From contig JAMPKV010000022.1 in NCBI GenBank assembly GCA_039962225.1, positions 1-64,000 of the forward strand: DNA of 64,000 nt, given 5' to 3'. Below, in pieces: positions 33,071 to 34,761 of this stretch. Each line of letters starts with the position of its first letter. Positions within the stretch are counted from its first letter, which is position 1. The stretch comes from Microcoleus sp. AS-A8. Lineage in GTDB: Bacteria; Cyanobacteriota; Cyanobacteriia; Cyanobacteriales; Coleofasciculaceae. The translations under genes were made by a program, and so were the position numbers. The notes below the pieces were generated by a model that saw only the letters and a program-made list of their open reading frames with translations, ran no database searches and was not told the origin of the DNA.

Positions 33071-34761
33071 TTAAAGCATGAAACTGGTTGCCCAAACCAG
33101 GTGACCGAACAGGAACATCCAGCCCCAAACAGACAAATTCGTTGTGCCGTAAGGATTGTAGCCGTTAATGACCTGAGCCGAGTACAGCCAAAGGTAGTCC
33201 CGTAGCCAGCCCATGATGTAAGTCGAAGACTCATTGAACTGAGCCACGTTGCCTTGCCAGATACCCAGATGCTTCCAGTGCCAGTAGAAGGTGACCCAAC
33301 CAATGGTGTTGAGCATCCAGAAGATGGCGAGGTAGAAGGACTGTTCCCAACCTGAAGTTTGGCAGGTGCCGCCCCGACCTGGGCCATCGCAGGGGAAGGT
33401 AAAGCCGAAGTCTTTCTGATCCGGCATCAGCTTAGTCCCACGAGCATCCAACGCACCCTTGACACAAATCAGCGTGGTGACGTGCAGACCGAGTGCGATC
33501 GCGTGGTGTACCAGAAAATCGCCAGGGCCAATGGTTAAGAACAGAGAGTTTGTCCCACTGTTAATCGCATCCAGCCAGCCGGGTAACCAAACGTTGCCGT
33601 AGTTCGGCCATGCTGTATTAGCAATACTGTCAGGATTCGATAACAGAACGTCCATTCCATAGAGCAACTTACCGTGAGATGCCTGGATGAACTGAGCAAA
33701 TACTGGCTCAATCAAGATTTGCTTCTCAGGAGTTCCAAAGGCAACTACCACATCGTTGTGGACGTAAAGCCCCAAGGTGTGGAAGCCGAGGAACAGAGAA
33801 ACCCAAGATAAGTGCGATATAATCGCCTCTTTGTGATTGAGTACCCGCTGTCTTTGATACTGTGACCAATCCCAAAGTTCGTCCGGTACATGTGACCGGC
33901 AATGATAAAGATGACTGCGATCGCTAAATGGTGGTGAGCCATATCCGTCAGCCACAAGGACTGAGTCTGAGGATGGAAGCCACCCAAAAAGGTGAGAATT
34001 GCGGTTCCAGCACCTTGAGATGTGCCAAAAATATGCTCAGCCGTATCCGGGTTCTGGCCATAGGCACCCCAGTTGCCGGTGAAGAATGGTCTCAATCCCT
34101 CTGGGTGCGGCATGGTCGTCAGAAAGTTATTCCAACCCACATGCTGTCCACGAGATTCGGGGATAGCAACGTGAACCAAGTGACCCGTCCAGGCTAGAGA
34201 ACTAACCCCAAACAACCCGGCTAGGTGATGGTTTAGTCGAGATTCAGCGCTCTTAAACCAAGCCAAACTGGGGCGGAACCGAGGTTGCAGGTGTAGCCAA
34301 CCGGCAAACAAGAAAACCGCAGATAGCAGCAACAGGAACACGGCACCTTGATACAGGTCGTTATTCGTCCGCATACCAATGGTGTACCACCAGTGATAAA
34401 CACCGGAGTATGCAATGTTCACTGGATAGGTTGCGCCTGCTTGGGTGAAAGCATCAACAGCCGGTGCACCAAATTGGGGGTCCCAAATCGCATGGGCGAT
34501 AGGACGGATATTGAGTGGATCTTTAATTCACACTTCAAAGTTACCTTGCCACGCGACGTGGAACAGAAGGCCAGAAGTCCACAAAAAAATGATGGCTAGA
34601 TGACCAAAGTGAGAGGCAAAAATCTTTTGATAAAGATTTTCCTCTGTCATGCCATCATGACTTTCAAAATCGTGAGCTTGGGCAATCCCGTACCAGATTC
34701 GACGTGTTGTCGGATCTTGAGCCAAGTCCTGGCTAAATTTGGGAAATTTGTTTATTGCTAT
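33071..34761 (-). pseudogene. psaB: psaB pseudogene (photosystem I P700 apoprotein A2)
   Basis: The sequence is unmistakable PsaB ([19 protein letters not shown] near the start; [28 protein letters not shown], the Fe-S FX loop; [22 protein letters not shown]). It is broken in four ways. The initiator codon position reads ATA (34759-34761). A TGA (34530-34528) replaces a Trp codon after GNFE. About 110 codons, judged from remembered PsaB sequences, are missing out of frame near 33855, between HSIK and RVLNHKEA. The C-terminus ends at WATSFML, about 80 residues short. The rest has no other frameshift, so decay is recent or slowed by gene conversion. No psaA is adjacent. A functional psaB must exist elsewhere in the genome. 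Confidence 0.93.

Follow-up and report, generated by a model that had tools for sequence, protein, structure and literature searches.

A PsaB3-type psaB pseudogene in Microcoleus sp. AS-A8 and its probable sequence exchange with the operon psaB

The genome of Microcoleus sp. AS-A8 carries, apart from its psaAB operon, a broken psaB that reads as the pseudogene of a paralogue of the psaB2 type, now termed PsaB3, while the intact psaB of the operon itself carries most of the residues that mark PsaB3. We favour, with reasonable confidence, an account in which a standalone PsaB3-type gene was recently inactivated: gene conversion with the operon psaB would have come first, and redundancy and decay afterwards. 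The window referred to below is the whole stretch of 64,000 nt that was analysed, and codon numbers throughout refer to the intact operon psaB.

The pseudogene and its locus

The minus strand from 34761 to 33071 is psaB with four lesions, as established by reading the sequence directly and by tblastn and HMM searches. The pieces, lesions and neighbouring elements are the following.

33850..34761, minus strand: 5' piece of the psaB pseudogene, equivalent to intact codons 1-303 (tblastn, PF00223)
34759..34761, minus strand: ATA at the initiator position (sequence)
34528..34530, minus strand: TGA replacing the conserved Trp77 (sequence; site invariant in the aligned intact rows)
33848..33851, minus strand: deletion junction at which the frame is lost between codons 303 and 415 (tblastn, sequence)
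33071..33847, minus strand: 3' piece of the psaB pseudogene, codons 415-672 (tblastn, 94% amino acid identity to the operon psaB)
33032..33064, no strand assigned: terminator-like hairpin immediately following the shortened 3' end (sequence, hairpin search)
32861..35653, no strand assigned: segment flanked by two collinear blocks and represented by about 122 bp in G001, a genome of the same genus

The two pieces match Pfam PsaA_PsaB (PF00223) with E values of 6.9e-112 and 8.4e-131, and chance is excluded as the source of these matches. In the 5' piece, 34752-33850 is 87% identical at the amino acid level to codons 3-303 of the operon psaB (tblastn). Codons 1-5 are I-A-I-N-K, where the four aligned intact genes begin M-A-T-K (M-A-A-K in one), which indicates one additional codon near the start, and the earliest in-frame ATG, GTG or TTG is a TTG at 34725. 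At the junction 33850/33848, 111 codons are missing and two stray bases are present, for a net loss of about 331 nt (tblastn); a TAA at 33073-33071 follows codon 672, and the terminal 71 residues are absent. The original prediction of a psaB pseudogene, with ATA for ATG at the initiator, TGA for a tryptophan, an out-of-frame internal loss near 33855 and a premature stop at the 3' end, is therefore borne out in every lesion. Two large losses combined with a stop and a lost start would not be typical of assembly error, and no trace of the lost internal and terminal parts turned up in the rest of the 64,000-nt window.

The original prediction had also proposed a genome search for intact psaA and psaB followed by alignment of the copies. 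The genome (G000; 7.75 Mb in 54 contigs) contains four PF00223 matches. Two are psaA and psaB, which lie side by side and intact on contig C15; the others are the two pseudogene pieces on contig C22, and there is no further match in the genome at E 0.001. Compared with this intact psaB, the pseudogene is 82.7% identical in DNA over codons 4-302 and 77.4% over codons 419-499, whereas the psaB of G001, the sole same-genus genome met in the searches, is 95.7% and 97.5% identical to the operon psaB over the same codons. The operon psaB and the G001 gene form a clade with support of 100/100 (codons 3-300) and 100/99 (codons 419-499), and a clade of operon psaB and pseudogene is rejected (AU p 8e-5 and 0.023, respectively). 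These identities exclude a recent duplicate of the resident psaB, and the suggestion of a recent extra copy fails for the 5' two thirds of the gene, where the operon psaB is far closer to its G001 counterpart than to the pseudogene. That a duplicate of the operon gene is now decaying, as the 94% identity of the 3' piece might suggest, is consequently highly improbable; the 5' part refutes it unless that part was later replaced wholesale. A recent tandem or segmental duplication was likewise ruled out by the 5' DNA divergence.

The codon-position pattern of the pseudogene resembles that of working genes. The ratio of differences at positions 1 and 2 to those at position 3 is 0.189 in codons 3-300 against a median of 0.196 for the intact rows (69 of 109 at or above the pseudogene), and 0.188 against 0.190 in codons 420-499 (66 of 109 at or above). 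Among sites invariant in the intact rows, 4 of 267 are altered in the pseudogene, one of them being the stop. With constraint still normal by these measures, the pseudogene appears to have died recently. Its closeness to consensus, which the original prediction had taken as a sign of a recent extra copy or of gene conversion, fits recent death after long purifying selection instead, since normal constraint lasted until recently. The same preserved constraint is what would be expected of a working gene hidden by recoding, programmed events or assembly errors; however, a lost start, an in-frame TGA and 111 plus 71 missing codons lie beyond recoding, and the lack of the missing parts in the window and of any further PF00223 match in the genome leaves such a gene barely credible.

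The pseudogene lies between two blocks of the window, 29664-32860 and 35654-44413, that are collinear with G001 at 93% and 91%, and it is absent from the collinear site there. The genes on either side of the locus are the HcyBio gene and the ABC gene. The hairpin at 33032-33064 was called on the plus strand, and a T run follows it on the psaB strand too. The G001 site retains a stretch like window 32989-33071, hairpin included, with 67 of 84 letters the same. This fits an ancestral psaB3 at the site, which G001 would have deleted more cleanly and the present strain would now be losing; alternatively, psaB may have been inserted in this strain next to a hairpin already present, which is compatible with the same layout. 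When the two ends of the extra segment were compared for repeats, the longest match was 7 nt, which does not allow a transposition reading. A search of positions 25000-45000 against Rfam returned nothing over the gathering scores.

Several other features of the window were observed. Gene order differs from G001 in that the matches to window 29664 and 52795 lie within about 50 bp of each other in G001, as after an inversion, and a frame at 51376-52644, presumably TnpB-like, adjoins one end of this inversion-like rearrangement. The intergenic stretch 32600-32860 contains a unit with GATAGCCATT...CTGGTGCAGTCC, present in two to three copies both here and in G001. An 848-aa frame at 45315-47861 holds, as judged by eye, about four repeats of a glycine-rich unit.

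PsaB3 residues in the pseudogene and in the operon psaB

The psaB2 of Nostoc punctiforme was renamed PsaB3 in 2023 (PMC10694217). In the portions of PMC10694217 drawn on here, which summarise the work on this 'PsaB2' by Ekman (2011) and Magnuson (2011), PsaB3 has replacements near FX and the B-side phylloquinone, a Gln insertion next to FX that marks all PsaB3, and a locus separate from psaAB. The pseudogene on C22 and psaAB on C15 are likewise separate loci.

We derived diagnostic sites from two sets of rows, 34 standalone signature rows and 59 standard rows, leaving out operon rows and signature rows with short upstream DNA. Eight sites separate the two sets nearly completely (standard/signature): 542 L/C, 563 Y/F, 564 A or S/T, 577 D/Q, 578 I/T, 582 D/E, 583 inserted Q and 715 R/W. 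Because signature rows were defined by the motif QT..WEQ, sites 577-583 fall within the definition, and 542, 563, 564 and 715 are independent of it. In an alignment to 1JB0, codon 577 is the residue directly after the second of the two cysteines of the FX loop. No diagnostic state occurs in 54 of the 59 standard rows and one occurs in the other 5, while 45 of the 49 other signature rows have all eight and the rest six or seven. The pseudogene shows the PsaB3 state at 7 of the 7 diagnostic sites still readable, by the states derived here, and its signature is located as follows.

33341..33373, minus strand: PsaB2/PsaB3 signature GGTC-QTSxWEQ, which includes the inserted Gln and follows the FX loop (pattern match, diagnostic residues)

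When codons 3-500 are used for the tree, the pseudogene branches first within a group of 56 rows (98/87) comprising 44 signature rows, the pseudogene counted, and 12 standard rows, a mixture that leaves PsaB3 membership unsettled by tree placement alone; the 3' part of the pseudogene pairs with the operon psaB near standard genes. Judged by its diagnostic residues and four lesions, the feature is best described as a pseudogene of a psaB2-type (PsaB3-type) paralogue. The comparison with psaB2 in the original prediction was thus the right one, as the diagnostic states indicate; a heterocystous host is not supported here, and no nifH match in this genome exceeds the family's cut-off. A link between PsaB3 and nitrogen fixation is likewise not supported: 10 of 22 genomes reach the nifH cut-off, and signature carriers occur on both sides.

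The intact operon psaB has 7 of the 8 PsaB3 diagnostic states, among them the inserted Gln and the PsaB3-type Trp715, and keeps Tyr563; its form of the motif is QTSSWEQ. Within the order sample, the signature occurs in 1 of 20 genomes of this family, namely the present one, two of the 20 (G004 and G011) having given no psaB match. The change towards PsaB3 in the operon gene is confined to its 3' third. Because the congener and the family genes are seen without the PsaB3 states, these states are taken to have moved into the operon gene.

Probable exchange between the two copies

The pseudogene and the intact operon psaB share a tract, detected by a change-point test and Fisher tests.

33122..33568, minus strand: tract common to the pseudogene and the intact operon psaB, codons 508-656, gene conversion (change-point test, Fisher)

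Over codons 1-507 the operon psaB is 96.0% identical to the G001 gene and 81.8% to the pseudogene; over codons 508-656 the values are 88.7% and 91.1%. At informative sites, where the operon psaB sides with either G001 or the pseudogene, it agrees with the pseudogene at 38 of 64 within codons 508-656 and at 16 of 204 outside (change-point scan), and 0 of 200 permutations reach the observed change-point score (best 10.4 against 35.3 log units). The excess persists with the diagnostic codons removed (29 of 55 inside against 16 of 202 outside; Fisher p 2e-12) and is also seen when third positions are taken by themselves (22 of 41 inside, 14 of 146 outside). Few of the states that the two copies share are missing from every one of the 17 standard family genes compared: with the diagnostic codons set aside, 3 such states lie inside the tract and 0 outside. 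In 60-codon windows starting at codons 520, 560 and 600, the operon psaB and the pseudogene are mutually nearest among 65 rows. For codons 508-656 these results support the gene conversion with an intact paralogue that had been offered as one possibility in the original prediction.

Parallel point changes under selection in the operon psaB, with no exchange, could account for a residue set that recurs on several different backgrounds. This is very unlikely here, since 7 of 8 states including a 3-nt insertion would have had to arise again, and the third-position excess largely refutes it. A tract that is 91% and not 100% identical is no product of an assembly merging the two copies; nor is it 98-100% identical, and the exchange is therefore either old or was made with a relative of this gene. 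Over codons 657-671, the last 15 that the pseudogene retains, the operon psaB is 80% identical to the pseudogene and 86.7% to G001; it is close to neither partner, and a second source is possible.

Phylogenetic analyses with the eight diagnostic sites removed agree with an exchange. The operon psaB and the pseudogene pair over codons 505-743 (100/90) and over codons 545-743 (97/94); in the latter tree the partner of G001 is another family gene (99/79). Over codons 500-640, the two pair (99/94) when the long row L163 is left out; with L163 included, the pseudogene pairs with L163 (99/96) and the operon psaB adjoins them. In this same region both copies group with the standard family genes G001, L009 and L011 (96/87 with L163, 98/83 without), and a grouping of the operon psaB with G001 is not rejected (p 0.16 with L163, 0.47 without), nor is it over codons 641-743 (p 0.36). 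Since the silent sites of codons 500-640 are standard in both copies, part of the tract probably passed from operon to pseudogene. Taken together, the sequence comparisons show an exchange at codons 508-656 and point to gene conversion between the two copies in mixed direction, the diagnostic sites having probably moved into the operon gene and silent sites the other way. The trees include 32 full-length rows from the 48 named signature loci, another 4 of which are copies of existing rows and 12 of which are without a full-length frame and stand off the trees, as do the order loci G176 (frame above 760 aa) and G106 (broken frame).

Two further rows are of interest in their own right. L163, from the filamentous cyanobacterium CCP2, is a standalone PsaB3-type gene with a long branch at codons 500-640 whose codons 3-500 do not pair with the pseudogene, and it is perhaps mosaic too. 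L087 and L130, the standard and PsaB3-type psaB of one genome (G172), group as sisters over codons 3-500 (99/99), and this suggests that the remainder of the gene has undergone conversion.

The principal rival is that the 3' third of the operon psaB came from another cyanobacterium by homologous recombination, while the resident copy decayed independently and took codons 508-656 from the operon. In its favour, no other row in the 54-row tree exceeds 87% identity to codons 641-743 of the operon psaB, and the pseudogene is no close match in the part of these codons that it retains. In codons 500-640 both copies have a background near that of standard family genes, and the signature is spread over the 5' tree with 10 changes. 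Against this stand the three windows in which the operon psaB and the pseudogene are each other's nearest among 65 rows, and we regard an outside donor as a somewhat unlikely but serious alternative.

Under the preferred reading of exchange with the resident copy, both copies would have been alive when gene conversion in both directions swapped the FX-side region between them. The operon psaB would thereby have gained PsaB3 features, including Gln for the Asp after the FX Cys and one inserted Gln, as silent sites of the family's standard psaB passed into the standalone copy. Once the operon gene carried these features the standalone gene would have been redundant, and it would have decayed through loss of its start codon, a nonsense mutation and two deletions; the resident copy as exchange partner and redundancy as the cause of decay are what we infer from this arrangement. 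Because the operon psaB carries the PsaB3 features, working photosystem I (PSI) should always have the PsaB3-type surrounding of FX and phylloquinone, permanently and not as an optional isoform. By analogy with PsaB3 elsewhere, the energetics of FX and phylloquinone may be altered (PMC10694217, PMC4582080); hypotheses to this effect are recounted in the part of PMC4582080 drawn on here.

PsaB3-type genes in other genomes and known systems

In the order sample the signature is present in 19 of 388 genomes at 21 places, counting the two of this genome, and in a wider sample in 4 of 386 genomes of the phylum, all four of this order. Five of 20 loci follow psaA (frames of at least 250 aa, the C15 gene counted and the pseudogene excluded). 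Contigs of named genomes gave 48 signature loci, at least 7 of which have psaA directly upstream, a lower bound because some of the 48 end short upstream; G241 accounts for one of these seven. Among 15 genomes searched with PF00223, mostly picked for operon signature hits, 10 besides this one have signature-type psaB only.

G184: PsaB3 only
G129: PsaB3 only
G147: PsaB3 only, two copies
G241: PsaB3 only, genome 73% complete
G388, YX3bin19: PsaB3 only, MAG
G389, Spirirestis: PsaB3 only, MAG, two copies
G390, Scytonema hyalinum: PsaB3 only, MAG
G391, Scytonema sp. NIES-4073: PsaB3 only
G392, Tolypothrix campylonemoides: PsaB3 only
G393, Microcoleus sp. FACHB-1515: PsaB3 only

Completeness is unstated for G388-G393, in which a second psaB may be missed. 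With ten further genomes of this kind, PsaB3 need not be an accessory isoform. The signature label requires 10 changes on the tree of codons 3-500, 7 of them forced by starred branches, and 7 changes on the tree of codons 505-743 without diagnostic codons, 2 of them forced. For G129 and FACHB-1515, the operon psaB has standard genes as its partners in the tree of codons 545-743 (92/75 and 100/94). The scatter of the signature and these pairings indicate that the residue set sits on several sequence backgrounds. We tentatively propose, as a possibility at somewhat under even weight, that the PsaB3 set is a transferable allele: short-tract exchange would have carried it into the psaAB operon in several lineages, leaving some species with PsaB3-type PSI only, and the present genome would be a snapshot after such a takeover, with the standalone copy freshly dead in place.

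Irregular psaB and psaA genes were also observed elsewhere. In Nostoc sp. CHAB 5824, L186 (G394:C43:114008-115906) is a PsaB3-type psaB without profile positions 406-495, a second decaying or shortened psaB3, in a genome that also has an intact psaB behind psaA. In Microseira wollei NIES-4236, L173/L128 (G395:C90:25981-28163) is a PsaB3-type psaB with a frame change near codon 94-98, beside which two other psaB genes are intact. In the MAG YX3bin19 (G388:C41:6400-8534, the L145 neighbourhood) the psaA before the operon PsaB3-type gene is split with one internal TGA, which may be a sequencing error.

The titles, abstract openings and passages covered from the literature on psaB2, PsaB3 and psaB recombination contain no description of a psaB hybrid or of a PsaB3-only genome. 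A literature search for papers on the aspartate next to the FX Cys found none, PMC6614487 and PMC11432928 offering, in the parts drawn on, nothing beyond reference titles. The best 2 of 174 PDB matches to a PsaB3-type query are without the Gln, and no solved PsaB3 structure was found among these two. PsaB3-only genomes would offer a homogeneous PSI for direct measurement of FX and phylloquinone energetics, and the pseudogene records how gene conversion can absorb one photosystem isoform into another.

Among known systems, the PsaB2 of the far-red light gene cluster (FaRLiP; PMC10694217) is alike in being a second psaB in the genome; unlike in that system, there is no second psaA here and the residue set is that of PsaB3. 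With one psaA only among the four PF00223 matches, identity with FaRLiP PsaB2 was rejected; the portions of PMC10694217 drawn on describe PsaB3 as unrelated to FaRLiP PsaB2. The ten PsaB3-only genomes resemble the present one in having a signature psaB directly behind psaA, with every psaB found being of the signature type, but no broken standalone psaB was found in them by the PF00223 search. A further close parallel is PsaB3 of Nostoc punctiforme, which in the same portions of PMC10694217 is an extra isoform made beside standard PsaB, with its photochemical meaning called unresolved. The two share the inserted Gln and altered residues beside FX and a phylloquinone, and both lie apart from psaAB; in Microcoleus sp. 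AS-A8, by contrast, there is no nifH match over the cut-off, the standalone copy is broken, and it is the operon psaB that carries the PsaB3 features.
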